Source: Candidatus Paracaedibacteraceae bacterium (GTDB taxonomy: Bacteria; Pseudomonadota; Alphaproteobacteria; Paracaedibacterales; CAIOTO01). Taken from it: a stretch of 64,000 nucleotides of DNA. This document shows positions 6,357 to 64,000 of this stretch, one piece after another (the stretch's first letter is position 1; each line of letters opens with the position of its first letter). Made by a program: the position numbers and the translations under genes. The notes below the pieces were generated by a model, which saw only the letters and a program-made list of their open reading frames with translations, had not been told where the DNA came from and did not search any database. The stretch covers positions 62,001-126,000 of the forward strand of contig JAUYTZ010000006.1 of the NCBI GenBank assembly GCA_030694965.1, read 5' to 3'.

Positions 6357-7913
6357 CTATGGCTGAATAATCTTCATTTCCCATACATGTTTTTCATCGT
6401 TAAATGTATACAGTTCAGGTAATCCATCTGTATCACGATAAGGTATATAACGGATTTGTTCATTCTGGACAAAATAAGCTTCATTGTTATAGCCAAAATC
6501 TGCGCCATAATTACAAATATGAATATAGAAATCTTTTTTCTTCATTAATTTAGGCAATAACTTTATAAAATCATCCAACGTTTCAATCGGTGTACCGTCG
6601 ATGTTTGTAATTGACACCAAGCTTACTGTACCAGAGCCTCTTGAAATCGCTGGGATTTGATCATAAAAACCACCACCAGGTTTTCTATTCGTCACAAATA
6701 CACCACGTTTTGCGTTTGTTCTACGGATAATAAAATCATCCAATTCATAAAAAACGGCTTTACCAAAATTTAGCATACGCTTTAACATATTGGTGTTTAG
6801 ATCATACAAACCAACGTCAACAGTTAATGGGTTTCCGTGACGAACAACTTCGAATACAACTTTTTTTGAACCTTTGGCGCCCTCTTCATTTATGATTTTA
6901 TCAAGCTCATATAATGAAGGTCCAACATCTTTACCATTCACCTTCATAAGGGTATCGCCAGCCATCAAAATACCTTCAGCAGGTGTTCCCTTAAGTGCTG
7001 TCTTTATAGTTAATACACGGCTAAATGCTTGCGGGAACTTTTGTTTAATTTCATCAGCCTTAACACTGTTAAAACCATCATAACGAACAAGATCTTCAAG
7101 TGGGGTAAACTTAATAATAGCCCCCGTACCATAACGTGCTGGCTTTTTATTATTTTTCAATGCTTCAAGTGCATCAAGCGCATAATCAATGGGTATAGCA
7201 AACGCGCTTGTCAAACCATTTGATGCATATAAGAAGCCAATAACGACACCATCACTGTTAAAAATAGGTGACCCGCTAGCTCCACCTTGTGCATTCAAAC
7301 TAATACGAAATACTTGCCCAGGCAAAACCTCAGATGTTTCGTAGACACTTGCCACGGTACCTGTTTGCGATGAGAAATGATTATTTTCATTCTTACCAAT
7401 AATCAAGATTGATTCACCCAAACGAACAGCACTGCGCTTTGTTGGCATTGATTTTGGAAGGTTTTTTAAATTCTTAGGATCTGTTTTTAAAATTGCAAAG
7501 TCATGCCATGGATCAGCGTAATATAGTCGCGCTTCAATAACGGTTCCATCGTGCAATGTCACGTCATAATGATCAATAACGCCATCCGGTTTTGCAACAT
7601 GTTGATTCGTTAAAATATATCCTTGATCCTTATCAAGAATAGCGCCCGTGCCGTAGGTTGTTCCTTCTTCGGAATAACCAGCAAGTGTTGTTCGAATTTC
7701 AATGCTTACAATGTACGGCTGTGACGAAATATAAAGATTCGACACCAAATCTTTTGAATGAACTGCTTCGGCTAAAATAGATTCAGGTGCAGGTATTTTT
7801 GTTACTTTTTCATCACTACGCGGGGCCGCAGGTTTGCCAGCAAAAAGCGCAGATGGCATGCAACACGATAGCGCAATTGCAACAGAAGATAAAACAAACA
7901 AACGATAGTGCAT
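6357..7913 (-). CDS. Trypsin-like (S1C/HtrA-type) serine protease with PDZ domain
   Basis: Exported protease, probably periplasmic. A signal peptide (MHYRLFVLSSVAIALSCCMP, cleavage near LFA) precedes a chymotrypsin fold with a complete triad: His in ILTNQHVA, Asp in WHDFAIL, and Ser in GGASGSPIF. A PDZ domain follows (GTPAEGILMAGDTLMKVNGKDV) at about residues 290-370, and then about 140 further residues with a second, weaker PDZ-like segment. At 518 residues it is similar in size to DegP-family proteases but differs in sequence, so I do not assign degP. A likely role is envelope protein quality control. It lies downstream of rpmG but is cut off from it by a terminator. Confidence 0.85.
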   Translation of the reverse strand: MHYRLFVLSSVAIALSCCMPSALFAGKPAAPRSDEKVTKIPAPESILAEAVHSKDLVSNLYISSQPYIVSIEIRTTLAGYSEEGTTYGTGAILDKDQGYILTNQHVAKPDGVIDHYDVTLHDGTVIEARLYYADPWHDFAILKTDPKNLKNLPKSMPTKRSAVRLGESILIIGKNENNHFSSQTGTVASVYETSEVLPGQVFRISLNAQGGASGSPIFNSDGVVIGFLYASNGLTSAFAIPIDYALDALEALKNNKKPARYGTGAIIKFTPLEDLVRYDGFNSVKADEIKQKFPQAFSRVLTIKTALKGTPAEGILMAGDTLMKVNGKDVGPSLYELDKIINEEGAKGSKKVVFEVVRHGNPLTVDVGLYDLNTNMLKRMLNFGKAVFYELDDFIIRRTNAKRGVFVTNRKPGGGFYDQIPAISRGSGTVSLVSITNIDGTPIETLDDFIKLLPKLMKKKDFYIHICNYGADFGYNNEAYFVQNEQIRYIPYRDTDGLPELYTFNDEKHVWEMKIIQP

Positions 7914-7917
7914 AAAT

Positions 7918-7952
7918 AAAAAAATCCTGGGACATGTTAATGTGTCTCAGGA
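7918..7952 (-). terminator. Intrinsic terminator downstream of rpmG
   Basis: On the minus strand ATCCTGAGACACAT pairs with ATGTCCCAGGAT around a short loop and is followed by seven T. It lies 38 nt past the rpmG stop and just before the protease start codon. Confidence 0.85.
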
Positions 7953-7989
7953 TAATGAAAAAGAATAAAAAATAAAAGAGTTAAAAAAA

Positions 7990-8160
7990 TTATTTTATTT
8001 TTGCTTCGCGAAATACAACATGCTTACGAACAACAGGGTCATACTTGCGGAATTCTAACTTTTCAGGCTTCTTGCGTGGGTTCTTACGCGCTACGTAAAA
8101 GAAACCAGTTTCTGCACTACTTAATAACTTAATGGTTATTGTTGCTGATTTTTTAGCCAT
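7990..8160 (-). CDS. rpmG: 50S ribosomal protein L33
   Basis: Small basic protein of the large ribosomal subunit. The 56 residues start [19 protein letters not shown] and contain the L33 signature [22 protein letters not shown], ending REAKIK. It lacks the zinc-binding Cys pairs, so it is the zinc-independent form, usual in alphaproteobacteria. It is monocistronic: tRNA-Gly lies about 80 nt upstream on the same strand and an intrinsic terminator follows. Confidence 0.97.
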
Positions 8161-8240
8161 GACTTTTCTCTAATTACAAAATTTTCTCGAATGATACAAC
8201 ATAAGTGTATATGAGAAAATACAAAATTTCAATTTAAAAT

Positions 8241-8315
8241 TGGAGCGGGCGAAGGGATTTGAACCCTCGACCCCAACCTTGGCAAGGTTGTGCTCTACCC
8301 CTGAGCTACGCCCGC
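8241..8315 (-). tRNA. tRNA-Gly (GCC)
   Basis: The minus strand folds as a complete cloverleaf: acceptor GCGGGCG/CGCCCGC, anticodon loop CTTGCCAA with anticodon GCC, T arm GAGGGTTCAAATCCCTT, discriminator T and an encoded CCA. Confidence 0.97.
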
Positions 8316-8333
8316 ACTCCGTTTATGAAATGT

Positions 8334-8361
8334 ATAATAGCGCTTTATGAATTTTTTGCAA
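8334..8361 (-). promoter_or_regulatory. Candidate promoter of tRNA-Gly
   Basis: On the minus strand TTGCAA (8356-8361) and TATTAT (8334-8339) are separated by 16 nt, about 19 nt upstream of the tRNA 5' end. Both fit a housekeeping-sigma promoter. This is a pattern match only. Confidence 0.5.
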
Positions 8362-8685
8362 GTGTTTTTTTATAAAGAATATCATTTTTTTTGAGATAAA
8401 ATAACAGCAAGCAAAAGAATAACTCATACCCTGCACATAATTAACTTTATCGCCATCATCACCTCATAAACACCACTATCAAAGAAATCCTATAACAGCA
8501 TTTTGATAATTTTACACCTCGTGAATAATATCTTATAAGTTATTTTACAGCTTACCTATAAGCAAAAGCAGTAGTAATTATTTTTTAACAAATCAGCACA
8601 CACGCCATAATAAAAATGGCAATAACTTAAGAAATTTTTTTGTTGCTTTTTAATTTTGCACCTGATAATTTCACAAATGTAATGT
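8362..8685. other. Intergenic spacer between tRNA-Gly and tRNA-Leu
   Basis: AT-rich DNA with no open frame that looks coding, no recognisable structured RNA and no repeat shared with the rest of the window. It should contain the tRNA-Leu promoter on the plus strand, but I could not single out a convincing -35/-10 pair. Confidence 0.5.
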
Positions 8686-41713: not shown

Positions 41714-42211
41714 TTATCCGCCTATTTGCGGTGCTTGCTTGTTCAATTCAGCAGCGAGATTTTTTTTATTATCGCGACCTTTTTCTTCGCGATCACCTTT
41801 ACGTTCCCGCTCCCTGCGACGCTCTTCTTTTAACTTGTCATTAATCAAATCTTCAAGATCTTCCCTAACATCTCTTATCTTTCTTTTTAAGTACTCTTTA
41901 AAATGAAGCTTAACATGTTCAAGAATTTCTTCTTTCATTTGACGAATTTCTGCTTGAAGCGCAGGTGAAACCTTACCTGAATAAGCCTCGTGCTGTGCCT
42001 TATCAGCAGCTGGCACGTGCGGTGCTGATGCTGGTGCAACAACTTGTGCTGATGCTGGTGCGGCAACTTGTGCTGATGCTGGTGCAGCTACTGGCGCCGG
42101 TGCTGATGCAGCTACTGGCGCTGATGCTTCTGAAGTCACCGCACTGCCAGTAGATGCGTTAACGACTGTATTCAACAACAAACCAAGAGCAAAGTATTTT
42201 ACAATATTCAT
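41714..42211 (-). CDS. Exported Ala-rich repeat and coiled-coil protein, unrecognised
   Basis: A 165-residue protein with a probable signal peptide (MNIVKYFALGLLLNTVVNAS), about 45 residues of Ala/Pro/Val/Ser repeats (units like APASAQVA), then a highly charged helical region (residues about 85-140) predicted to be a coiled coil, rich in Arg/Glu/Lys. The repeat is also visible in DNA as repeated GATGCTGGTGC units. I recognise no family. It has its own terminator. A structural or surface-associated role is possible but unproven. Confidence 0.65.
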   Translation of the reverse strand: MNIVKYFALGLLLNTVVNASTGSAVTSEASAPVAASAPAPVAAPASAQVAAPASAQVVAPASAPHVPAADKAQHEAYSGKVSPALQAEIRQMKEEILEHVKLHFKEYLKRKIRDVREDLEDLINDKLKEERRRERERKGDREEKGRDNKKNLAAELNKQAPQIGG

Positions 42212-42307: not shown

Positions 42308-43828
42308 TTACACGGTAACTGTATGCCTTCTGCGCATAATCAACGCGCCTATCATTGAAATTATTAACAGTCCCCATAGAAAGCTATCTTTAAAACGGCT
42401 ATAAAACGTTCTAGGTAATGCTTTAGGCAATTCAAAATCAATAAAGCCAATATCATTTAAACCAAGTTTATGCAAAATACGGCCACATGGATCAATTACA
42501 GCAGAAACACCATTGTTAGCAACCCGGACAAGCGGCAATCCCTCTTCAATGGCGCGAATTCGCACAAGTGCTAAGTGCTGGTAAGGACCTGCTGATACGC
42601 CATACCAAGCATCATTAGTAATATTTAAAAGCCATTCTGGGCGTTTTACAGAATTTTTACTAACAACTTCACCTGGGAAAAGTGCTTCAAAACAAATCAA
42701 AGGTGAAAATGGCGGCAAAGCAGAAATTTTCAATGTTTTAAGCCCATCACCTTCAGCAAAATCAAGTGCTCCTGGAGTAACCTTCTCAACGGGCAAAATC
42801 TTCTTAAATGGCACGTATTCACCAAATGGCACAAGATGTGATTTCTTATAAGTATGTGTTATTTCTGCTTTTTCATTCAGAACGGAAAGAGTTGTGAAAA
42901 TTTTATCCCCTTCACGGCGTGGCGTCCCAGTAATCAGGTGCCCATTTTGTGGCACAATAGTACTCAAAATTTCTCTAAGCTCAAGCGATTCATTCAAAAT
43001 TCGAGTAACTGCCGCTTCTGGCCAAATAATAGCACTTAAAGAGCGCTCAGCCTTTAAACCAGACAAAGCAAGTTGCAGCTCAATATTATGTTCAAATTTT
43101 TCAGGAAGCCACTTTAAATGCTGGTCAATACTAGGCTGAATCATGCGTAAATTAACAGGCAACAACTCAGTTTTCGCATCATTCATGCGCAAACCACCAA
43201 AAAAGCTACATACAATAATGCCGTTTAAAGCAATAATACTGGCAGTTCTATTTGTTCCTGTAATTAAAACAACCGCAAGCATTGTCAAAAAAGATAACCC
43301 ATACACCCCGACAAAAGACACCATTTGCAAAATAGATAAACCAAGGTCATTCATCCCTGGCAAGGTATAAGCGCCCCAAACAGATCCTATCAAACTCCAA
43401 GGGAACCCCGTGAACATATGGCCACGCAGCCATTCACATAAAGCAAATCCAACAGCAAAGGCAATGCGTCTCTCGACCGATTTTGGTTTAAACGGCTTTA
43501 TAAATAAACCAATAGGTAAAACAAAAACGGCTAGTATAGCTGATAGCATCGCGACGGCAGGAAAACCAAGCCATCCTATATCGATCGTTCGAAATGAAAG
43601 CCCTACCCAATACGTACCAACACCAAAAAAACCAAGACCAAACGCATACAAACGCTCATATAACTGGCGCGTATTTATTGCATCATCGATCAGATGCAAC
43701 AATCCCCAAACACCAAAAAATAAAGCAAATATACAATAAATAGGTGCAAAAGAAAGTGCAGCAACCGCCCCTAGCAACATTGCCCCACCACGTGGATTGT
43801 TTAAAATAAAGTGCAAGATCTTATTCAT
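42308..43828 (-). CDS. lnt: Apolipoprotein N-acyltransferase
   Basis: Adds the third acyl chain to lipoproteins at the outer face of the inner membrane. The 506 residues contain about six N-terminal membrane segments and a periplasmic nitrilase domain with the catalytic Glu in IIWPEAAV, the Lys in YKKSHLVPFGEYVP and the Cys in LICFEALFP. A final membrane segment lies near the C-terminus. Complete. Its substrates include BamE and the ABC-binding lipoprotein in this window. Confidence 0.96.
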   Translation of the reverse strand: MNKILHFILNNPRGGAMLLGAVAALSFAPIYCIFALFFGVWGLLHLIDDAINTRQLYERLYAFGLGFFGVGTYWVGLSFRTIDIGWLGFPAVAMLSAILAVFVLPIGLFIKPFKPKSVERRIAFAVGFALCEWLRGHMFTGFPWSLIGSVWGAYTLPGMNDLGLSILQMVSFVGVYGLSFLTMLAVVLITGTNRTASIIALNGIIVCSFFGGLRMNDAKTELLPVNLRMIQPSIDQHLKWLPEKFEHNIELQLALSGLKAERSLSAIIWPEAAVTRILNESLELREILSTIVPQNGHLITGTPRREGDKIFTTLSVLNEKAEITHTYKKSHLVPFGEYVPFKKILPVEKVTPGALDFAEGDGLKTLKISALPPFSPLICFEALFPGEVVSKNSVKRPEWLLNITNDAWYGVSAGPYQHLALVRIRAIEEGLPLVRVANNGVSAVIDPCGRILHKLGLNDIGFIDFELPKALPRTFYSRFKDSFLWGLLIISMIGALIMRRRHTVTV

Positions 43829-43965: not shown

Positions 43966-45516
43966 TTAAATAGCTGCACTAGCTTCTTCATTGCTTACTT
44001 CCTTCATTTCAATCTGCTCATTCACCAGCTCTAATTCATTAATCAAGTCTTCAATTACTAATAAGCTCTGTTCCCAAAATTTTGGTTTTGTTGCATCCAA
44101 ACCAAAAGGCGCCAGTAATTCTTTGTGACATTTCGTCCCGCCTGCGCGCAGCATATCAAGATATTTTTCCTCAAATCCGTGAGGATTTTTTTGATAAACA
44201 GCATAAAGTGAATTCGCAACGCAATCACCAAATGCAAAAGCATATACACAAAATGGATGATGAAAAAAATGATGAATGTAAGACCAAGAATTTCCAACAA
44301 GCGGATCAATTTCAACATAAGACCCTAAGGCTTCGCATTGTGTTTCTATAAAAATGTCATTTAAATCATTAACAGTCAGCTTTCTACGACGACCTTGCTC
44401 ATGCACGTATGTTTCGAAAACATGAAAAGCTGTTTGACGGACAACATTTCCGATCATATCTTCAATTTTATAAGCCAAAATTGCTTGCTTTTCATGCAGT
44501 GTTTTTGCTTTTTTAAGTGAGCTTATAAAAGCTAACATTTCACCAAAAGTAGATGCTACTTCAGAAAGCACAATTGGAATTCCAAGTGAAGAGTCCCCTT
44601 TTGGATTGCTTAGCATATGGTGAGCACCACGCCCTAATTCGTGTGTAAGCATTCTAACACTTTGGCGACTCCCATAAAAATTAAGGACGATAGAAGGTTG
44701 CGCGTTTGAAACATCTCGCTTTGTAAAAGCATTTGCCCGTTTGTCTTCTTTGGGCGCATAATCAATCCACTCTTTATCAAAAAATTCTTGCACTATATTA
44801 CCGATTGTAGGGCTAAATTCTCTGTAGGCACTCAATACAATTTCTTTTGCCTCAAGCCATGTGTATTTATGTTCCACGCTTTGCGGCAGAGGAGCCATTC
44901 GATCCCAATATTTTAACTTCTCAACTCCCATCATCTTGGCTTTTAACTGATAATAACGATGTGATATATTCGGGTAATAATCCTTTCTAATCGTATTAAC
45001 CATCATCTGTACAACATCGTCTTCAATTTTGTTGCTTAAATTGCGCAAATCAATTGGGTTTTTAAACCCGCTTTGCATATCAACGTTTTTTTTATTTTTG
45101 ACAAGAGCATTTAGAATATGTAAAAAATCCTCAACCATATCATTTAAGCCTGAGGAAAGCGATTTAGCTGCTTTTTCACGTACAAAAGGGTCAGAACACG
45201 ACATCATTTCAGCTATTTCTGAAAGTAATAATTCTTCGTCGCCCACAACAAACATCTTATTTGTTAATTTCCCATCATACATCCGACGCAAAGCGATCAC
45301 ATCATCAGTTAGCACTTTGTTTAAAGCACTTTCATCTTCAGCTCTTATCTGACAGGGTTCACTACTTATTTGGCAGGATTTTAATTTTTCTAGATGGTCA
45401 GCATTTTCGACTTCACTAAACTCCTTTGTAGTTGAATGCGTAACATTCACAAAAGATGCGCATAAAAATAAAGCGCTAACAAACTGAACTAATCTCTTTG
45501 TTCTAGACATATTCAT
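43966..45516 (-). CDS. M3-family (oligoendopeptidase F-like) peptidase with altered zinc motif
   Basis: An M3B peptidase relative of 516 residues preceded by a signal peptide (KRLVQFVSALFLCASFVNVTHS), so exported rather than cytosolic. The order of elements is normal: an N-terminal helical domain, the metal motif region, then SEVASTFGEMLAF with the third ligand Glu, and HHPFCVYAFAFGDCVA. But the motif reads THELGRGAHHML instead of HELGH: the second zinc-binding His is Arg (codon CGT, one change from CAT). The enzyme is therefore probably inactive or altered. I use the ATG at 45516, with GAGG nine nt upstream; the frame opens at 45576. Confidence 0.85.
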   Translation of the reverse strand: MNMSRTKRLVQFVSALFLCASFVNVTHSTTKEFSEVENADHLEKLKSCQISSEPCQIRAEDESALNKVLTDDVIALRRMYDGKLTNKMFVVGDEELLLSEIAEMMSCSDPFVREKAAKSLSSGLNDMVEDFLHILNALVKNKKNVDMQSGFKNPIDLRNLSNKIEDDVVQMMVNTIRKDYYPNISHRYYQLKAKMMGVEKLKYWDRMAPLPQSVEHKYTWLEAKEIVLSAYREFSPTIGNIVQEFFDKEWIDYAPKEDKRANAFTKRDVSNAQPSIVLNFYGSRQSVRMLTHELGRGAHHMLSNPKGDSSLGIPIVLSEVASTFGEMLAFISSLKKAKTLHEKQAILAYKIEDMIGNVVRQTAFHVFETYVHEQGRRRKLTVNDLNDIFIETQCEALGSYVEIDPLVGNSWSYIHHFFHHPFCVYAFAFGDCVANSLYAVYQKNPHGFEEKYLDMLRAGGTKCHKELLAPFGLDATKPKFWEQSLLVIEDLINELELVNEQIEMKEVSNEEASAAI

Positions 45517-45686: not shown

Positions 45687-45713
45687 GCTCTAAAACCAAT
45701 ATGTTTTTAGGGC
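45687..45713 (-). terminator. Weak terminator-like hairpin at the end of serS
   Basis: On the minus strand GCCCTAAAAA and TTTTAGAGC can pair across the serS stop codon, followed by TGTTTTC. The T-run is poor. Confidence 0.3.
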
Positions 45714-46981
45714 AAAGATATTACCGTAACGCCGCCCATATAGGGAACCAAAACATCAGGAATTGTAATCGAGCCATCTGCTTGCTGATAGTTTTCTAAA
45801 ATAGCAACCATAGTTCGGCCAACAGCAAGACCTGATCCATTCAATGTGTGCACAAAATAATTTTTACCATCTGCTTTTGACTTATAACGTGTATTCATCC
45901 GGCGTGCTTGAAATTCATTGCAACGTGAGCAACTAGAAATCTCGCGGTATGCATTTTGTCCTGGAAGCCACACTTCTAAATCATATGTTTTTTCAGCTGA
46001 AAACCCCATATCCCCGGTGCAAAGTGCCAATGTTCTAAATGGCAATCCAAGTTTTTTTAAAATAGTTTCAGCAGCGTCTGTCATACGTTCATGTTCGATA
46101 GCGGCTTGCTCAGGAAGGATAATACTTACCAATTCAACTTTTGAAAATTGATGTTGACGAATCATACCTCGTGTATCTTTACCTGCTGAACCTGCCTCTG
46201 ATCTAAAGCATTGTGAATAAGATGTAAAACGAAGTGGTAATTCAGATTCAGCTAAAATTTCACCTGACACAAGGTTTGTCAGCGTAACTTCTGATGTTGA
46301 TGTTAGCCAATGTCCTGTTGTTGTTTTAAACATATCCTCAGCAAATTTTGGCAAATGACCAACACCGAAAAGCGCTGCATCATGCACAAGCAAAGGTACA
46401 TAAGTTTCTGTATAACCAAACTCTGTTGTGTGCGTATCAAGCATAAATTGCGCGATTGCACGTTCAAGTCTTGCAAGTTGCCCCGTAAGAACAACAAAGC
46501 GTGAACCTGACATTTTCGCAGCACGCTCAAAGTCCATCATTTTAAGGCTTTCGCCAAGCTCAAAATGTTGCTTTGGTGTAAAATCAAATACACGCGGTAA
46601 ACCATGACGGCGAATTTCTACATTCTCAGATTCATCTTTGCCATCAGGACATTCAGTGGCAGGCAAATTTGGAAGATGCGATAAGACAAAGTGAAGGTCT
46701 TTTTCAAAGACAAACATTTCCGCTTCTAATGTTGCCATTTTTGCTTTGGTGATTTCATTTTCAGATGTTAGATCACTCGTATCTAGACCATTCTTCTTAG
46801 CTATGCCAAACTCTTTGGCTATCTGATTACGTCGCGTCTGCAAATCTTGTAGCTCCGTTTGAATCTGACGAAGCTTTGTATCAATATCTAAAATATGTGC
46901 AGATTGTGGCTCAAGACCACGACGTGCTAGGCTTTCATCAAATTGATCGGGAAGGCTTCGGATAAAACGAATATCATGCAT
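45707..46981 (-). CDS. serS: Seryl-tRNA synthetase
   Basis: Charges tRNA-Ser and tRNA-Sec. The 424 residues have the long N-terminal antiparallel coiled coil (about residues 30-100), class II motif 2 [20 protein letters not shown] and motif 3 in [17 protein letters not shown]. Normal length. Its start overlaps the tatC stop by 8 nt; tatC-serS is a conserved alphaproteobacterial pair. Confidence 0.97.
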
Positions 46982-49637: not shown

Positions 49638-50993
49638 ATGTCAACACACCGTCTTACCATTGTACCTCATATTCACTGGCATGAAGGCATGATGTTAACA
49701 CCTCAACATTTTCAGCAAATGGAATTTAGGCATCACCAGCATTTATCACATCAATTGAATTTATTGTCTCCTCATCATTGGGGAATTCAAATTCTTGAAA
49801 TTGATCCTATTGCACTCAGTGATGGTATCATTCGTATTTTAGAGCTTGAGGCGGTGATGCCTGACGGCCTAATTGTTAATTACAGATCAGACATGAAAGG
49901 TGTTGGTTCTCTTGAGCTTGATATCCGCAATTTCAAACCAGATACCTCGCATGAAGAAACAACTATATTTTTATCAATGCCACGCCGCACATCAGATCGA
50001 TCACCAACAGTTGGTGACTTAACTCGATTTATTTCAATCGAAGGAGAACCTATTAAAGACGAAAATATTCCAGACAACGTCATCGAAATACCACGGCTAT
50101 TTCCAAGGCTTATTTTAAGTATGGACAATAAACCACCGGCCCTTTGTATTGGGTTTCCAATCTTAAAAATAGTTTTTAATGAATCTTATGCACGCGCAAA
50201 CTTTATACCCCCCTGTTTTTATATTACGCACGATAAACACTTATGGAAGCACTGCGCTAATCTAGCTCAACGTATTCGCGAGAAAGCAATGTATTTAAGT
50301 GCACGCTGGCAAAACCAAATTGGCACACCAATGATGATTGAAACAGAGGCACTGCTAAGGCCACTTATCCGCGCGCTACCAGGACTTGAAGCATTGTTGA
50401 ACGTATCATATATAAGCCCATTTTCACTTTATCAAAAAATGTGTGACATCGTGGGTGACTTAACAGCACTACGCTTAACGCAGTTACCACCTATTTTGCA
50501 AGGTTACAATCATGACGATATTATGGGTTCATTTGAACCTTTGATTGAACTTATCGATCAATATCTACATACAATTGAAGAAAGCTACGCTGTTATTCCA
50601 TTCCAACAACGTGAACGTTTATTCTATGTACGAATGCATAAAAGCTACCTCAAAAAAACATTCCTTATTGGATTGCGTGCGGCAAAAGGGGTGACACAAA
50701 CACAAATGGAAGAATGGCTAATGGATGCAGTTATTTGTAGCGATTTTGCCATTGAAACTGTCCGCAACAACCGTATTACTGGGGCAAAACGACAACTTGT
50801 AGAAGGCAGCTTATTGGCTGATTTTATGCCTAATCGTGGCATGACCCTAGTAGAAGTCACTTATGATTCTGAATATATATCTGCAGATCAAAATATAAAT
50901 ATTTTTAACCCATCTGACGCCACAGAACGCCGCCCTGTTGAGATTGTGTGTTATATACCAAAAACAGGCAGTATTGAGAAAGATTCCTATTGA
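49638..50993 (+). CDS. tssK: Type VI secretion baseplate protein TssK
   Basis: Trimeric adaptor connecting the T6SS baseplate to the TssJLM membrane complex. The 451 residues begin with the hallmark VPHIHWHEGMMLTPQHFQQM and continue with the conserved LEALLNVSYISPFSLYQKMC region; the length is typical. AGGAG precedes the ATG. The stop overlaps the tssL start by one nt (TGATG), so the genes form one operon. Confidence 0.95.
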   Translation: MSTHRLTIVPHIHWHEGMMLTPQHFQQMEFRHHQHLSHQLNLLSPHHWGIQILEIDPIALSDGIIRILELEAVMPDGLIVNYRSDMKGVGSLELDIRNFKPDTSHEETTIFLSMPRRTSDRSPTVGDLTRFISIEGEPIKDENIPDNVIEIPRLFPRLILSMDNKPPALCIGFPILKIVFNESYARANFIPPCFYITHDKHLWKHCANLAQRIREKAMYLSARWQNQIGTPMMIETEALLRPLIRALPGLEALLNVSYISPFSLYQKMCDIVGDLTALRLTQLPPILQGYNHDDIMGSFEPLIELIDQYLHTIEESYAVIPFQQRERLFYVRMHKSYLKKTFLIGLRAAKGVTQTQMEEWLMDAVICSDFAIETVRNNRITGAKRQLVEGSLLADFMPNRGMTLVEVTYDSEYISADQNINIFNPSDATERRPVEIVCYIPKTGSIEKDSY

Positions 50994-51814
50994 TGAGCAA
51001 TACACGAAGCTTTCGTTTAAATAACAGCCCTTTGCTGCAATGCTTTCAGACATTTTATTATGAAGTCATTCGCTTAAAGGAAAGAGCTTTACGTTTTACT
51101 GAGGTCAATGTTCCCATTGAACATGATGAATCTCATCGAAAACAATATACGCAGCTCATCGAAGATATTCAAATGCGTCTTAAAATGACACTTGAAGAAC
51201 AAAGTTCTGTATATGCACGTGCAACGGGTGGCATAAATGCTGGTCTTTTCCATGATGCCCAATATATCATGACAGCACTTGCAGATGAAATTTTTTTAAA
51301 CCTTGCTTGGGCTGGTGCAAAGGAATGGCGATTTGCTTTACTTGAAGGACAACTGTTCCAAACACAAGTCGCAGGCGAGCTCATCTTTAAAAAAATTGAT
51401 GGCGTGCTCGAAGGATACGACATAGCACGCTACGAGCTTGCCCAACTTTATTTGATGGCCTTAAGTCTAGGATTTCGCGGCCAATATCGCGCCCATGACT
51501 CAAAAGGGCGCGTCAATTGGTATCAAAGCAAGTTATATCAAGTATGCTGTCATGAACCTTCCCAACTGTATAATCTAAGCTCAACAAAAGCACTATTTGA
51601 AGAATGCTATGCACACACGCTAAGCGAATCACCAGGACGCGGCATGCCCGATCTTCGCACATGGGGCATTTATGGGCTTTGCGTCTTTTTAATTTTTATT
51701 TTTGTCTCTTACGTTGTGTGGTATCGTATTGCCTTTGAAATACACAGCGATTTAAACACAATTTTTGCACAAACAACAAAACGGCATATGCCGCATGAGA
51801 ATCATCATGGGTGA
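50993..51814 (+). CDS. tssL: Type VI secretion protein TssL (DotU/IcmH family)
   Basis: Inner-membrane T6SS protein, 273 residues. The cytoplasmic DotU domain has YIMTALADEIFLNLAW and LEGQLFQTQVAGELIF; one C-terminal membrane segment (IYGLCVFLIFIFVSYVVWY) is followed by a short periplasmic tail. There is no OmpA-like peptidoglycan-binding extension. The start is ATG at 50993, overlapping the tssK stop; the tssM start overlaps its own 3' end. Confidence 0.94.
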   Translation: MSNTRSFRLNNSPLLQCFQTFYYEVIRLKERALRFTEVNVPIEHDESHRKQYTQLIEDIQMRLKMTLEEQSSVYARATGGINAGLFHDAQYIMTALADEIFLNLAWAGAKEWRFALLEGQLFQTQVAGELIFKKIDGVLEGYDIARYELAQLYLMALSLGFRGQYRAHDSKGRVNWYQSKLYQVCCHEPSQLYNLSSTKALFEECYAHTLSESPGRGMPDLRTWGIYGLCVFLIFIFVSYVVWYRIAFEIHSDLNTIFAQTTKRHMPHENHHG

Positions 51815-54800
51815 TGGATTACTTCAATATTTTCAAACATTCATGAATAGCATCCGTCTAGGCTTTCAATCAGTTCCTATGACATTGTGGCTTCTGTTTA
51901 TTTGCATTCTCGTTATTATCGTTATTTTACTGTTTATCATGTATGTATCGAATAAAAAAACAGAGCCAGATAAAAGTGGTGAACCAGCACGTGAAGACAA
52001 AACCAACTATTCAGCTGATGATAAAGCTATTTATGAAGAAATTGAACGCATGCCACCTTTGGGGGGGTGGATAAGTGAATTCTTATCACGCAAAGGCTAC
52101 TTCAGTGTTGGCGAATTGAGCCTATCTTTTTTACGTGCCTTATCGTTTTTAAAAACAACGTTTAACACCTACAACTACAAATATCAAGTTCCATGGTTTT
52201 TGGTCTTAGGCACAGAAGGCTCTGGCAAATCAAGCTTATTTGAATCAGGAGGTCTACATTTACCACTTGGCACACCTGATTTTTCAAAAGGAAAACTAAA
52301 AGCATCATGCCGTTGGTGGTTTTTACAAGGCGGTGTGTATATTGAATTAAAAGGCGATCTTTTCATACAAAAAGATAATGCAAAATCAAAAGAAAAAATG
52401 TGGCGATCATTTATTGTTTTGTTAACACGTTACAGGGCCGCACGTCCAATTAACGGCATTATCCTAACCATTCCAGCCACAGAACTTTATGGCAAGGATA
52501 AAGAGTCCACAGAACGTATTTATCAACGTGCAGAATACATTTCAGCTAAATTAGCAGCAGCTCAATCTTCATTTGGATTACGCATTCCTGTATATATTGC
52601 TGTGACGAAAACAGACATCATCCCAGGCTTTCAAAGCTTTTCAAAACATGTGCCGCAAAACAATAAAAACGATATGTTTGGTTGGTCAAATCCATACAAT
52701 GTAATGGCTGCTTATTCACCTGCATGGCTTGAAGATGCATTTACAACCATTGCAAATAAATTGCATCAATTACGCCTTGATATATTTGCCCATTCCGGGG
52801 CTGTTTTAAATGAGCACCTTGAAACAAATGACGGTGTATTTGTCTTTCCAGGTGAACTGGAAAAACTCAAAGAACCACTTTCAATATACATCAACGCGCT
52901 CTTTAAACCATCGGCATACCAAGATGGCCTCTTGTTTCGCGGCTTCTACTTTACAGGTGATGCAGGTCCTGAGCCCATTTCATCCATCCCCTTAAAACCA
53001 GATACATTTGATCAATTTGGTGGCTATCTCGAAAAATCTGACCCAGATGATATTACACTCATTCCTCACCCCTTTGACCCAGATACGATTCGCCTTGAAT
53101 CAAATGCAAATTCAAAAATCGATTCGATAACAATTGCTAGGCCTATTGTTCCCACAGAATATGCAGATGGCCTAAAGCTTATTTACGTACAAGAGCTTTT
53201 CACAAAGAAAATTTCTTATGAAGCAGGTCTTGCAAAACCATTAAAACAACGTTTAGTGTCGCTCAATCGCGGCATATTTATTGCAAAAGTTGCTACTGGG
53301 TCGTTTATTGTGGTTGGTAGTTTTGGTTTATTTAACGCATACGACACCTTCTCAACAAGCCGTAATAACATCACACCAGTGCTTGCAAACATGAATTTTG
53401 TACTTCACGAAATTCGTATTGATAAAAAAAACCCGCTCAATGCACGCTTTAAATCCGCAGACCAATTTAACCTTTATACTCATCAAATCATCGATATGAT
53501 GATTCAATTACAAAGAACTGATTTATTTTCCATTTTCGTACCTGCTTCATGGTTTAGCCATCTTAACAGAGACCTACACAAATCCCTACAAGTCGCATTT
53601 AAAGAAATTATTATTCGCTCAATTGCAAATGGTTTAGCTGTTCGCGCACAAGAACTTCTTTACCTAAGGCCAAAAACAATAGATGTCACGCAAAATATAA
53701 CGCAGTTATTGCTTCCTCTTAGAAGTCCAGAATTCTTATTATTGCAACGTTTTATAAATGGTTTATCTGATCTTGATCATTACGTTACAATGTTTAATTC
53801 CTTAAAAAAAACAGGTGAACCAACTCATCTAAAAGCATTAATTGCTTATACTTTCAATTGCGAATTACCAGATAGTTTTTGGGATCAATATAAGATTTTC
53901 AGAAAATTGTTAAGCAAAACGAAGCTTAGCGAATTAAACCTTCAAATGTATCAAAGTGTAGCACGTGAAACGTTAGACGTCCTTTTTCAAAACTTTACAA
54001 ATGCTATTTTTTCCAGTCAAATTCAAAACAGTTTGCCTTCGCGTTTAACTACTTTCTTAAATAGCTTAAACCAGCAAACAACGCATACATTGCCTGATTT
54101 GAAAAATTTACGTGATGTTAGCTTGCAACTCGCACAAATACGCCCACTGCTTGGCGAAGTCGGCAAAACGTGGATGGATCAACCTGTGTTTGCGCCTGGT
54201 AAAGATTTAGAGACTCTTTTTGATCGCGTTGACGCATCGCGCTTATTTGGCAAAAACGTCACCCAATACCTAGTCGATAAAGCAGCCATTGGTTTTAATG
54301 AGCTCAAGATGCACCTACTTGCCATTAATAAAATTGTTCTTGCTCCACAAACATCAGCTCCAGTGGCGCCGCTTGTTGAAGCAATGGCTAATACTAATAA
54401 TTATCCATCAAAAGGCCTCTTTGAAATCGAACGCAGCTTGTCTGCATTGTTTTCTGAAAGTTACATGGCAGCGCCCACTCATTTTTCATTCACAACGACA
54501 ACACCCCATGGGAAAATGATTTATTGGGATCCAAAATTAATTGACATCGCTTATGATATGAGTAAAGGATTCGAAAATTTTTCTTCGAAAAATATTTCAA
54601 CCTTTCCAATCATACTTCAAGAAAATATAAAACTCATTGCACGTCAAAGTTTGCAAAGTAATATTATTAGTCTATTAAGCCAAGCCCAAAGTTTTGTAGA
54701 TTTACCAGTAACTTACACGCTAAATAGCGCAGAAGAAGTATTGCGTGCAAAAATTGAAGATTTTAAAGCTGTATCTCCAAAATTTATCAAACTACTCTCT

Positions 54801-56363
54801 ATCGTAAATAAAGAATCCGTTGGCATTGCATTTCTTGACCTGCGCGCTTTACTCGTTGAAAATTCGTTTTGGTTACTCGATAACGTTAAAAAAATGATGA
54901 CAGCGTTTAATCCTTACGCGATAAGAGACTTTTCGTTCTCATGGTGGAACGGCAATGCGGGTGCTGCGCTTCAAGGATTCTCTGTACGCGACAATGCAGA
55001 CTTAGAAGCATATATGACATTACAAAACCAATTGATTCAAAAAATTTCATTAGAATTTGCCAAACCTATTGTTACCTTCTTACAGTCTCCTGTTTTTGTA
55101 GATGGTTCAGGCAACCATGCACTTCTTCGTAAATGGTCACGTATTGTGACCCAAACTGAAAATTATGCCAACCGAATTGCCGGGAATTCCGTTCAAACAT
55201 TACATGATTTTGTAACAAAAGATCTTGCCACAATGGATGCAAAAATGGTCATCACCTCTATCAATCCAGCCGAAATAAATAACGATTCAGGTGACTTCTT
55301 TATCGAAACACTAACTGCCCTTAAAAAGGGCTTTAGATCACGTGCTGAAATATTACAACGCCAACATGCAATTGCTGCGTACTCAAAATTAGCCCTTTAC
55401 TTCAATCAAAATCTAAAAGGTAAATTTCCATTCGTTACATCAAACTTAAGCCTTGTTACAGAAGAAGCTGACCCTGAAAATATTCGTGAATTTTATCGCC
55501 TTTACCAAGATGCGGGCGGCAATACTGAGAACACTCTTGACCAGCTTTATCAGCTTGGTGACGTTATGAAGAACTGTGTTCAATTCTTTAAGGCAATGGA
55601 TTACTTAAAGCAATTTTTTGCAAGTTATCTTGACCCGAATGGTGGTATGCCTATTCCAGCTTTTGATTTCACAGTTGATTTCAGAGCAAATCGTACTAAC
55701 GAACAAGGCGCAGACCTCGTCGTCGACTGGGTATTTAAACCAGATGATGTGACATCTATTGATAAAAATGATAAAGTAAAAAATGGCAGATGGACCTACG
55801 GCAATGAAGTTAAATTTAGTTTCCGCTGGCCAGATGGTGCAAAAATTCCATCATACCCTGTGCGTGATCCAAAACAACCGAACTTATCGATTAGTGATCG
55901 CACAGCAACTTTTGCGTTTAAAGGTAAATGGTCACTACTATGGGCACTGCGAATGCAAGAAGATATAAACGCCTACGCTAAATTAACATCTAAACCAAAC
56001 CCAACATTAATGAAATTCACAATTCCGACCGGGCCAACAACAAGCTCAGTTCTGTTTAATACTATTGCATTGACTGTTCCATCAACATCTGCTCACACAA
56101 AAGGCAAAGATATGAAGTTACCAAACTTCCCTGCCTTTGCGCCTGAATTACCGCCCGCAAATGAACTGCATGCAGATCGTGCGGTGTTAACTGAGCAAGG
56201 TATTGGCGGTATAAAAACTACAACTGGTGAAAAAAATACGCTAAAAAATACTTCACCTATCAGTATGTCTGGACAAGCAAAAACAAATAATCAAGCAAAG
56301 TCCCCTTTAGAAGCGCCAGTTATATCAAACAGGGCACAGCAAAACACAATAAAACGACCTTGA
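51807..56363 (+). CDS. tssM: Type VI secretion protein TssM (IcmF family)
   Basis: The large inner-membrane T6SS protein. Of about 1518 residues, N-terminal membrane segments (TLWLLFICILVIIVILLFIM) precede a cytoplasmic domain with the Walker A motif GTEGSGKSS (about residue 138) and PVYIAVTKTDIIPGF. A third membrane segment near residue 490 (IAKVATGSFIVVGSFGLF) and a large periplasmic region follow. The C-terminal beta domain (DFTVDFRANRTNEQGADLV) is followed by about 110 unusual low-complexity residues. TssM proteins are more often 1100-1300 residues. I start at ATG 51807, overlapping tssL; ATG 51795 is an alternative. No further tss genes follow. Confidence 0.93.
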   Translation: MGDGLLQYFQTFMNSIRLGFQSVPMTLWLLFICILVIIVILLFIMYVSNKKTEPDKSGEPAREDKTNYSADDKAIYEEIERMPPLGGWISEFLSRKGYFSVGELSLSFLRALSFLKTTFNTYNYKYQVPWFLVLGTEGSGKSSLFESGGLHLPLGTPDFSKGKLKASCRWWFLQGGVYIELKGDLFIQKDNAKSKEKMWRSFIVLLTRYRAARPINGIILTIPATELYGKDKESTERIYQRAEYISAKLAAAQSSFGLRIPVYIAVTKTDIIPGFQSFSKHVPQNNKNDMFGWSNPYNVMAAYSPAWLEDAFTTIANKLHQLRLDIFAHSGAVLNEHLETNDGVFVFPGELEKLKEPLSIYINALFKPSAYQDGLLFRGFYFTGDAGPEPISSIPLKPDTFDQFGGYLEKSDPDDITLIPHPFDPDTIRLESNANSKIDSITIARPIVPTEYADGLKLIYVQELFTKKISYEAGLAKPLKQRLVSLNRGIFIAKVATGSFIVVGSFGLFNAYDTFSTSRNNITPVLANMNFVLHEIRIDKKNPLNARFKSADQFNLYTHQIIDMMIQLQRTDLFSIFVPASWFSHLNRDLHKSLQVAFKEIIIRSIANGLAVRAQELLYLRPKTIDVTQNITQLLLPLRSPEFLLLQRFINGLSDLDHYVTMFNSLKKTGEPTHLKALIAYTFNCELPDSFWDQYKIFRKLLSKTKLSELNLQMYQSVARETLDVLFQNFTNAIFSSQIQNSLPSRLTTFLNSLNQQTTHTLPDLKNLRDVSLQLAQIRPLLGEVGKTWMDQPVFAPGKDLETLFDRVDASRLFGKNVTQYLVDKAAIGFNELKMHLLAINKIVLAPQTSAPVAPLVEAMANTNNYPSKGLFEIERSLSALFSESYMAAPTHFSFTTTTPHGKMIYWDPKLIDIAYDMSKGFENFSSKNISTFPIILQENIKLIARQSLQSNIISLLSQAQSFVDLPVTYTLNSAEEVLRAKIEDFKAVSPKFIKLLSIVNKESVGIAFLDLRALLVENSFWLLDNVKKMMTAFNPYAIRDFSFSWWNGNAGAALQGFSVRDNADLEAYMTLQNQLIQKISLEFAKPIVTFLQSPVFVDGSGNHALLRKWSRIVTQTENYANRIAGNSVQTLHDFVTKDLATMDAKMVITSINPAEINNDSGDFFIETLTALKKGFRSRAEILQRQHAIAAYSKLALYFNQNLKGKFPFVTSNLSLVTEEADPENIREFYRLYQDAGGNTENTLDQLYQLGDVMKNCVQFFKAMDYLKQFFASYLDPNGGMPIPAFDFTVDFRANRTNEQGADLVVDWVFKPDDVTSIDKNDKVKNGRWTYGNEVKFSFRWPDGAKIPSYPVRDPKQPNLSISDRTATFAFKGKWSLLWALRMQEDINAYAKLTSKPNPTLMKFTIPTGPTTSSVLFNTIALTVPSTSAHTKGKDMKLPNFPAFAPELPPANELHADRAVLTEQGIGGIKTTTGEKNTLKNTSPISMSGQAKTNNQAKSPLEAPVISNRAQQNTIKRP

Positions 56364-59763: not shown

Positions 59764-62700
59764 TTATGCACCACAAGAATTCGTAGCTGGATTATACTGA
59801 CTGGTTCCGTTGCAAATGCAATTACTTGAGAGTGAACCAATACCAACCTTTGAATTCGCTGGGCATGCTGCAACACATGTGGTTCCTATTATAAATGGTG
59901 TTGCACCTTGACAGCTTGCCATGCATTTTGTGCCTACTCCAGAATTAAATGGTGAAGCAAGTGGACATGTCGCCATGCATGTTGTTCCATTTAAGTAAGG
60001 CATATCCGTTGGACATGATGCTGTACACGTTGAGCCAAGTCCTGAGTTATACTGAGCCGTTGCTGGGCACACAGCTGTACACGTTTTCAAGACGGCATCA
60101 AAGTAAGGTGTCGCACCCGAGCATTCTGCTGTACATGTGCTTCCATTTATAAATGGTGCAGCTGTCGGACATTGTGCAGTGCAGGTATTGCCGTAGACAT
60201 ATGGCGCTGTTGATGGACAGTTTGTCACACATGTCTGGCTTGATGGGTTCAAATATGGAGCAAGCAAACTTGAACATGATGCTGCACAAACCCCGTTACT
60301 ACCAACCACCTGATTCCCTGGGCAAGCTGCCACACACGTATGACCATTTAAGTAAGGCGCTGTTGTTGGGCAATTTGCCACACATGATGAACCATTAATG
60401 TTCGGTGCATTCTCTGGACACGATGCTACACACGATGTGCCGCTTAAGTACGTTCCTGTTGGACAACCAGCCACACACACACCATCTACCGCATTCGATG
60501 CAGAGCTTGGACAGGATGAAACACATGTTTTACCATTTAAGAATGTCGATGTAGGGCAAGCTGCCACACACGTTGTTCCATTTGTGTAGGGTGCACTTGT
60601 TGGGCAGGTTGATACACATACGCCATCGTTAACTAACATCCCTACCGGGCATGTCGCCACACAGGTTGAACCATTCAAGTAAGGCGTCGAACCTGAGCAT
60701 GTTGACACACACGTATTGCTATCTTTATCAAGCATAGTCTTCAAAGGGCACGTTGTCACACACGTTTTACCACTAATATAAGGTGCTGATGCAGGGCAGC
60801 CTGTTACGCATTGTGACGCGCTAATTAATGGTGAAGTTGTAGGACATAGTAACACACATGTTTTGTTATTCAAGTAAGGCGTTGTTGACGGACAACCGGC
60901 TACGCACACATTATTACTAACAAAAGGTGTGGCTGCAGGACAGTTTGTCACACATGTCTTGCTTGCGCTATCAAGATATGTCCCTGCTGGGCATGTTGCG
61001 GTACATGCTTTTCCATTCAAATACTGCGCTGATGAAGGACATGTTGCCATACATGTGTTTCCGGATGTGTAAGGCAAGTTTGTTGGACACGTTGCCACGC
61101 ACATCTTACTTGCAGTATCAATAAATGTCCCTGTTGGGCATGTTGCTGTGCATGTATTATCAGTACTTATAAGAGAAGCAGATGACGGGCAATTAATCAC
61201 GCATGATTTTGCTATAGGATCCATATGCGTACCTATTGGGCAGCTTGTAACACATGTTTTTGACGCTGAGTCAAGATACATTGACGATGGGCACGTTGTT
61301 ACACACGCCTTACCATCTGCATAGGGAGCTGAAGAAGGACATGTTGCCGTACACATATTATTGTTTATAAAGGATGCAGTACTTGGGCATGCTGCCACAC
61401 ACGTTGTACCACTTAAGTAGGGTGCACTTAATGGGCATGTTGCTACACATGCTTTATGCACGCTATCTAAGTACATGCCTGCAGGACATGTTGCAACACA
61501 AGTCTTTCCATTTGAATAAGGCGCAGAATCGGGGCATGATCCCACACATACCTTATTATTTATATAAGGTGCTGTCGTTGGGCATTCTGCTGTGCATACA
61601 TTTCCATTTACATATAGTGCAGATGATGGACATGTTTCAACACAACTATTTGTCGCACTATCAAAGAATGTAGAGGCAGGACAAGATGACACACACGTCT
61701 TGTTATTCGAAATAGACGCTGTAATTGGACATGATGCCGAACACACTTTATTGTTTACGAATGGAAGTGTAGTTGGACATGAAGCCACACACATTGATCC
61801 GTTTAGGTAAGGCTCTGTTACAGGGCAGCTACTTACACACGTGTTTGATACTGGATCTGTTTTGAGAGGCGCAGGACAAGATGACACACACGTATTACCA
61901 TTCAAAATAGGCAATGTAGCAGGACAAGCAACCACACAGCTATTGCCATTCAAATTAGGGGCTGTAGTAGGGCATGTGCTTACGCATTTATTACCATCCA
62001 TATAAGGAGCCGTTGCAGGACATGCGTTCACACAACTATTACCATTGATATAAGGTAATTTTGAAGAACATGCAGCCACACAGCTATTACTACTACTATC
62101 AAAATAAGTCGACGCTGGGCAAGAAGTCACACATGTCATGTTATTCGAAATAGGTGCCGCAGCTGGGCAAGACGGTACACATGACTTTGTTACCGTGTCA
62201 ATATAAGACGCTGATGGACATGTTGCCACACATGTTTTAGATAAAACATCAAGATACGTTGATGCAGAACACTTTGACACACAGGTCTTTGAAGTCACAT
62301 CAAGATAGGTTCCAGTTGGACACATTGATACACACGTTTTTGTTAATGTATTCAAATTGGGTGTACTGCCAGAACATGTTGCTGTACATGACGTGCCAGG
62401 ACCTGAGTTATAAATCGCTGTTGTAGGACATGTTGCACCACATGTACCTGCAGCTGCATCAAGATATGTTGCTAATGGACATTTTGACACACAGGTTTTA
62501 TTTCCTGAATCAAGGTATAAAGGTGATGGGCATTTGGATACACACGTCGTTCCATTTAAGTATGGTGATTCTGTGGGGCACTTTGCCACACAAGAGGTCC
62601 CATTCGTATATGGAGAAGTTTCTGAGCAGCTACTCAAGCACACATTTTTTGATTTATCTAAAAGCATACCTGTGGGACAAGAAGCCACGCATGTTTTACC

Positions 62701-64000
62701 ATTTGCATATGGAACAGCTGTTGGGCAATTTGCAACACATGTTTGTGTAAGTGAATTCAAGTAAGACGTTGAACCTGAACATGCTGCTATACATGTTGTG
62801 CCTGGGCCCGAATTATAAGGTGTCGATGTTGGACATGTTGAACTACATGTATTTGATGCTGGATTCAAATATGTTGAACCCGAACATTTTGACACACATG
62901 ATTTAGTTGCTTGATCAAAGTAAGGCAACGCTGATGGGCAGGTTGTGCATGTCTTTGATGTTGGGTTTATATAAGGTGTAGCCGTTGGGCATGTGGACAC
63001 ACATACTTTTAATGCAGGATCATAAACAGGCTTAACAGAAGGACATGCTGAACATGTCTTCGTTGTCGAATTAGCAACAGGCGTATTACCCGTGCAAGAT
63101 GCAACACACGCTGTTCCCGCGCCTGAGTTATACGGTGTTGCTGATGGACATTTAGCAACACATGCTTTAGTCGCAGGATCTAAATGTGTTGAACCTGGGC
63201 ACTTTGACACACACTTTTTACCAACAGGATCATAAGCAGGCGTTGAACCTGAACATGCCGTGCATATCTTAGATTTTGCATTTGCATATGGCGTTGCTGC
63301 AGGACATGCTAACACGCACGTTGAACCACCACCCGAATTATACGGCGTCGCCGCTGGACATGCTGACACACACATCTTACTTGCTGGATCGTAAAAGAAT
63401 GAACCAGGACATGCAGACACACATGACTTACTTGTTTTGTCAAAAATTGGCTTTGTTGATGGACACACAGTACATGCTTTTGTCAAAGGATCTGCATATG
63501 GGACACTAGCAGAACAAGTTGCTGTACATGTTTTTGTTACTGAGTCATATGTAGGTGCGCTTGATGGGCAGGCAATACATGTTTTTGAAGCTGTATCTGC
63601 ATATGGAATTGTTACAGGACACTTAGCCACACATGTCTTAGTCGTTGGATCATATGTAGGCTTATCAGTTGGGCAAGCCTTACATGATTTAGTTGTTGGG
63701 TCAGCAAAAGGAGATGCTGCTGGACAGTTAGACACACATGTTTTTGAAGTCACATCATATGTTGGCGCAGCTACTGGGCATGACGCGCATACACGTGTTA
63801 CTGAATCTAAGAATGGTGATGTCGTTGGACATGATGCCACACATTTCTTTGCTACTGAATCGTACGCAGGCGTTGAAGCCAAGCAAGCTGTACAAGTCTT
63901 TAAAAGCGGATCCGCATATGGAGCTGATGTTGGACATGTTATCACACACGCTTTAGACGTTGGATCATACGTTGGCATTGACGTTGGACATGCTGCACAT
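59764..64000 (-). CDS. Giant cysteine-rich tandem-repeat protein (5' end outside window)
   Basis: The minus strand is open from the right edge to the stop at 59764: at least 1412 residues of one repeat, with the N-terminus missing. I count about 82 units of 16-18 residues, each with two Cys. Consensus: C-P-x-x-x-P-Y-x-(N/D)-x(2-5)-(K/T)-x-C-V-x-x. Three variants occur: one with YDxxxKxC, one with YLNGxTC and one with YNSGxGxxC. The protein is rich in Ser, Thr, Ala and Pro. The gene ends with a divergent unit (GIGSLSSNCICNGTSQYN, ending NSCGA). No membrane anchor or known enzymatic domain is visible. By composition it should be an exported, disulfide-rich fibre. I recognise no named family; a loose likeness to eukaryotic furin-like or protist surface-antigen Cys repeats is only an impression. 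Confidence 0.85.
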   Translation of the reverse strand, partial: CAACPTSMPTYDPTSKACVITCPTSAPYADPLLKTCTACLASTPAYDSVAKKCVASCPTTSPFLDSVTRVCASCPVAAPTYDVTSKTCVSNCPAASPFADPTTKSCKACPTDKPTYDPTTKTCVAKCPVTIPYADTASKTCIACPSSAPTYDSVTKTCTATCSASVPYADPLTKACTVCPSTKPIFDKTSKSCVSACPGSFFYDPASKMCVSACPAATPYNSGGGSTCVLACPAATPYANAKSKICTACSGSTPAYDPVGKKCVSKCPGSTHLDPATKACVAKCPSATPYNSGAGTACVASCTGNTPVANSTTKTCSACPSVKPVYDPALKVCVSTCPTATPYINPTSKTCTTCPSALPYFDQATKSCVSKCSGSTYLNPASNTCSSTCPTSTPYNSGPGTTCIAACSGSTSYLNSLTQTCVANCPTAVPYANGKTCVASCPTGMLLDKSKNVCLSSCSETSPYTNGTSCVAKCPTESPYLNGTTCVSKCPSPLYLDSGNKTCVSKCPLATYLDAAAGTCGATCPTTAIYNSGPGTSCTATCSGSTPNLNTLTKTCVSMCPTGTYLDVTSKTCVSKCSASTYLDVLSKTCVATCPSASYIDTVTKSCVPSCPAAAPISNNMTCVTSCPASTYFDSSSNSCVAACSSKLPYINGNSCVNACPATAPYMDGNKCVSTCPTTAPNLNGNSCVVACPATLPILNGNTCVSSCPAPLKTDPVSNTCVSSCPVTEPYLNGSMCVASCPTTLPFVNNKVCSASCPITASISNNKTCVSSCPASTFFDSATNSCVETCPSSALYVNGNVCTAECPTTAPYINNKVCVGSCPDSAPYSNGKTCVATCPAGMYLDSVHKACVATCPLSAPYLSGTTCVAACPSTASFINNNMCTATCPSSAPYADGKACVTTCPSSMYLDSASKTCVTSCPIGTHMDPIAKSCVINCPSSASLISTDNTCTATCPTGTFIDTASKMCVATCPTNLPYTSGNTCMATCPSSAQYLNGKACTATCPAGTYLDSASKTCVTNCPAATPFVSNNVCVAGCPSTTPYLNNKTCVLLCPTTSPLISASQCVTGCPASAPYISGKTCVTTCPLKTMLDKDSNTCVSTCSGSTPYLNGSTCVATCPVGMLVNDGVCVSTCPTSAPYTNGTTCVAACPTSTFLNGKTCVSSCPSSASNAVDGVCVAGCPTGTYLSGTSCVASCPENAPNINGSSCVANCPTTAPYLNGHTCVAACPGNQVVGSNGVCAASCSSLLAPYLNPSSQTCVTNCPSTAPYVYGNTCTAQCPTAAPFINGSTCTAECSGATPYFDAVLKTCTAVCPATAQYNSGLGSTCTASCPTDMPYLNGTTCMATCPLASPFNSGVGTKCMASCQGATPFIIGTTCVAACPANSKVGIGSLSSNCICNGTSQYNPATNSCGA

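Follow-up and report, generated by a model that had tools for sequence, protein, structure and literature searches.

The window, a stretch of 64,000 nucleotides with a GC content of 38% from a small genome of 1.5 Mb, carries a candidate pseudopeptidase gene of the M3B (PepF-like) type on its minus strand at 43966..45516. The reading frame begins with an ATG at 45516, just 5' of which lies a GAGG ribosome-binding-like motif, ends with a stop codon at 43966-43968 and encodes 516 amino acids. Its upstream neighbour is serS (45707..46981, minus strand) and its downstream neighbour is lnt, encoding apolipoprotein N-acyltransferase (42308..43828, minus strand). In the congener G001, serS (C209:5720-6982) is followed by lnt (7132-8640) with no gene between them, i.e. 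by an empty site, while the region 3' of serS holds ribosomal-protein genes in G003 and another gene in G005 (names assigned by eye). The M3 gene was thus either gained at the serS-lnt site of the window or lost from that of G001. Elsewhere in the window, 41714-42211 (minus strand) encodes a protein that looks exported, in which Ala-Pro-Ala-Ser motifs recur ahead of a charged stretch, and 49638-56363 (plus strand), roughly 4 kb away from the M3 gene, contains matches to the Type VI secretion families T6SS_VasE (TssK), DotU (TssL) and IcmF-related (TssM). A 1404-residue open reading frame at 59767-63978 (minus strand) matches the Furin-like cysteine-rich family (PF00757, E 2.1e-26), which is unexpected in a bacterium and possibly reflects a Cys-rich surface protein.

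The product of the M3 gene is a homologue of family M3, with a significant match to Pfam Peptidase_M3 across the catalytic domain (PF01432, 131.8 bits against a cut-off of 27, E 5.9e-38). Its score against TIGR02290 (M3_fam_3) is 394.3 bits and falls below the curated cut-off of 561.7; the absence of the N-terminal part of the protein lowers the score. Among solved structures, the PepF-like 2qr4 and 3ce2 are the best relatives (phmmer to 2qr4, E 1.2e-38). An AlphaFold model, computed from an input of two rows (the window protein and one distant homologue), was poor, with a mean pLDDT of 48.3 and a pTM of 0.49. The ten PDB entries that match it best are of PepF type (2qr4, E 8.3e-10) at rmsd values above 20, so the model supports the family and not the geometry, and sequence homology is the basis for assuming a retained fold.

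The active site was compared in an alignment of the window protein with 31 homologues, taken from the loci among the matches listed (at most 30) in a search of 58 related genomes, 51 of which matched, together with additional stretches. Shorter duplicate loci (L001-L005, L014) and a Firmicutes locus (L032) were excluded, and two rows (L007, L031) start at an internal Met. In thimet oligopeptidase, as described in PMC7565970, zinc is held by the two His of HEXXH and one further Glu. The second of these His is replaced in the window protein by Arg296 (CGT, 44629..44631, minus strand), one base from a His codon, giving HELGR in place of HELGH. The first-pass annotation had read this replacement correctly, and likewise the presence of the first His, the adjacent Glu and the Glu of SEVAS, all of which appear in the alignment: His292, Glu293, Glu319 and also His416 are kept, Glu319 being the third zinc-ligand position within LSEVAS (44560..44562, minus strand, counted from residue 1 at 45516). 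The Arg itself is not conserved among the homologues, as all 31 have His at this position. Nor is the rest of the protein intact, as had been assumed, since 24 of the 113 positions identical across the 31 homologues are altered and about 150 N-terminal residues are gone. The altered positions include, besides H296R, two Tyr that follow a His-Phe motif and are present in 31 of 31 homologues; these are Cys423 (TGT, 44248..44250) and Phe427 (TTT, 44236..44238) in the window protein, both on the minus strand. Alignments place both Tyr in 2qr4 and 3ce2 as well. In the M3 enzyme K-26-DCP, according to PMC5157764, Tyr 599 and Tyr 606 form hydrogen bonds to a bound inhibitor and may aid substrate binding and stabilise intermediates. 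Judged by spacing to the conserved His, position 423 would be the putative counterpart of Tyr 599. Of the features expected of an active M3 enzyme, the window protein therefore has the third-ligand Glu and lacks both the complete HExxH pair of zinc His and the conserved Tyr.

The N-terminus of the protein (MNMSRTKRLVQFVSALFLCASFVNVTHS) resembles a Sec signal peptide over residues 1-28 (45433..45516, minus strand), based on sequence reading and on a hydropathy maximum of 2.37 over residues 13-23. The only Cys of this segment comes after LFL and by eye does not form a lipobox. A linker of approximately residues 29-85 (45262..45432, minus strand) follows and replaces the roughly 150 residues of the PepF-type N-terminal region, which the alignments show to be absent; there is little homology until about residue 64. 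No detached N-terminal piece was found elsewhere in the genome, where the sole match to this region is the intact M3 copy, which speaks against a split-off domain encoded at another locus. The secretion signal noted in the first-pass annotation is supported as a candidate by sequence features, and it is not unique, as the second M3 copy of G001 also starts with a hydrophobic segment. A signal-peptide-like stretch also lies 5' of the usual start of L012, the sole M3 copy found in G023, and may merely reflect an upstream in-frame Met.

The genome of the window holds a second, intact M3 copy with HELGH (G000:C2). M3 matches were found in 40 of the 42 genomes of the order, with two strong copies only in this genome and in G001. 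Further second M3 matches in the order are weak, namely a distant one in G030 (34% identity), a 35-residue fragment in G035 and pieces on two contigs in G036; incomplete assemblies may conceal M3 copies in the order. No second copy was found in the congeners G002 and G003. That of G001 (C86, locus L033, 2965-4944) is full length, with a hydrophobic N-terminal segment, HELGH and both Tyr, and is altered at 17 of the 130 positions that are invariant in the other 30 rows, keeping the second zinc His among them. It adjoins hpf-like and lexA/umuC-like genes (names assigned by eye). Closer relatives of the window protein were also sought more widely. Among the matches listed from 289 genomes of the class, 190 of which had a match, none outside the genus exceeded 45% identity, and none outside the genus exceeded 47% among the 58 related genomes. 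A scan of genome contigs returned a Firmicutes homologue only, and a scan of viral contigs returned none.

The terminal branch of the window protein is very long: it amounts to 2.7 changes per column, where the second copy of G001 has 0.99. In a tree calculated without the window protein, the second copy of G001 diverges before the split of the four intact copies of the genus (supports 97/89 and 98/89), which makes the duplication appear as old as the genus. Forcing the window protein together with the second copy of G001 made the tree 1.4 log units worse (p-AU 0.255), and forcing it together with the intact copies of both G000 and G001 gave a p-AU of 0.38. Neither grouping is rejected, and the first is not favoured either. 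Grouping with the intact copy of its own genome gave a p-AU of 0.058, and an origin as a recent duplicate of that copy is thus nearly rejected. Ten residues are common to the window protein and the second copy of G001 alone, some of them within a TLHEKQ stretch and some within a C-terminal tail. This is the highest count of any row, although fast-evolving rows score higher anyway (L022 has five and L037 has six such residues). A tally of columns ended in a draw, with 31 favouring the second copy of G001 over the four intact copies of the genus and 31 favouring the reverse. Synteny between the two genes was rejected, as their neighbours differ, and their orthology therefore rests on sequence features. 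The window gene is probably a degenerate relative of the second copy of G001, and a single exported ancestor of the two is likely, although the tree does not place them firmly together.

Selection on the gene was considered by comparing it with the intact copy of G001, from which it differs by 0.389, 0.299 and 0.577 at first, second and third codon positions. The third positions are the most changed, which fits a protein under constraint. The exported-looking copy of G001 differs from the same intact copy by 0.21 at second positions, so that the window gene is about 0.09 more diverged there. Random neutral change was simulated in the 439 homologous codons, with 2000 runs each under uniform or AT-rich substitution. 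At 0.1 changes per site about six stops arose on average, and stop-free runs were rare (0.15% uniform, 0.45% AT-rich), which makes a purely neutral phase a poor explanation for the additional divergence. At 0.05 changes per site 3-5% of runs were stop-free, and a brief neutral phase or recent decay is possible on this account. The open frame despite the divergence, together with the excess of change at third positions, indicates that selection has acted on the gene for the greater part of its history. A close orthologue of the window gene was sought and none was found, so the codon-position signal is not specific to the time after loss of the zinc ligand, and much of it could date from a period when the protein was still active.

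We consider it somewhat more probable than the other readings combined that the window gene codes for an exported M3B oligopeptidase homologue with a shortened N-terminus and without zinc-dependent catalysis, a pseudopeptidase that is probably kept for binding. An ordinary pepF would have been copied near the base of the genus and the copy would have acquired an export signal. In the lineage of the window the exported copy, located between serS and lnt, would then have evolved fast. Without the second zinc His and the two conserved Tyr, hydrolysis is predicted to be abolished, and the remaining part would still fold and, in the periplasm, bind either peptides or a protein partner. A more specific and speculative proposal, which we think unlikely as stated, is that the M3B scaffold has become a periplasmic peptide-binding or peptidase-regulating protein, in which the zinc site and the N-terminal part of the channel wall are gone, so that the normally enclosed peptide channel lies open and holds peptides or a partner protein uncut. 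The first-pass annotation had offered a recently inactivated enzyme and a non-catalytic derivative as two options, and the latter is now the better supported. A lone recent mutation is disfavoured because it would account neither for the very long branch nor for the absence of two Tyr and of the N-terminal part. Inactivation through several losses is thus the most likely course.

Ranked second behind the pseudopeptidase is decay, in which the exported copy fell out of use, its N-terminal part and active site disappeared, and a stop codon has simply yet to arise. Gene loss is common in small genomes, and the 1.5 Mb genome, the very long branch and the congeners G002 and G003, in which no second copy was detected, would all agree with such a process. 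Against it stand the 516 codons free of stops and frameshifts, the bias of changes towards third positions combined with the rarity of stop-free runs in the neutral simulation, and the persistence of a ribosome-binding-like motif and a signal-peptide-like start. We regard decay as a serious but clearly less probable explanation. An active metallopeptidase of new specificity with a rewired metal site, formed by His292, Glu319 and, for example, Cys423, appears improbable. The first His, the catalytic Glu and the third-ligand Glu are all kept, and a Cys does occur where relatives have the invariant Tyr of the His-Phe...Tyr motif, but two Tyr that are otherwise invariant have gone, an Arg next to the metal would presumably be unfavourable, and no M3 enzyme is known to have such a metal site. 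A sequencing or assembly error confined to a single codon, in an enzyme that is otherwise ordinary, is conceivable in that CGT is one base away from a His codon, yet it is very improbable as it explains neither the missing N-terminal part nor the 23 further changes at invariant positions.

The pseudopeptidase reading implies that the protein probably no longer cuts peptides and that it may bind something beyond the inner membrane. The genus could hold a series that runs from the ordinary enzyme in intact form, through a second intact copy whose N-terminus is hydrophobic in one species, to a copy in another species that bears an export signal and lacks the active site. Provided that the protein is produced and does bind peptides, this would illustrate how an oligopeptidase can become a binding protein outside the cytosol. 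Inactive homologues occur across many peptidase families, and the kind of protein proposed here is thus already known. FtsHi proteins and inactive ADAMs, as covered in the review PMC11266112, are likewise homologues of active metallopeptidases that have lost HExxH residues. The pseudopeptidases examined in the review's table belong to families other than M3, and its main text, in the portion available, mentions neither oligopeptidase, oligoendopeptidase nor family M3. In the open-access literature, a weak basis for a negative, no bacterial M3 pseudopeptidase and no exported or inactive bacterial M3B protein was found. The second copy of G001 resembles the window gene in being an extra M3 copy with a hydrophobic N-terminus, but unlike it is full length, keeps HELGH and both Tyr, and lies at another genome location. 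With oligoendopeptidase F and other M3B proteins (TIGR02290 M3_fam_3, TIGR00181 PepF, 2qr4, 3ce2) the window protein shares homology over approximately residues 65-500, the first His and the Glu of HExxH, the third-ligand Glu and His416. It differs from them in lacking the second zinc His, the two Tyr and about 150 N-terminal residues, and in its signal-like start.
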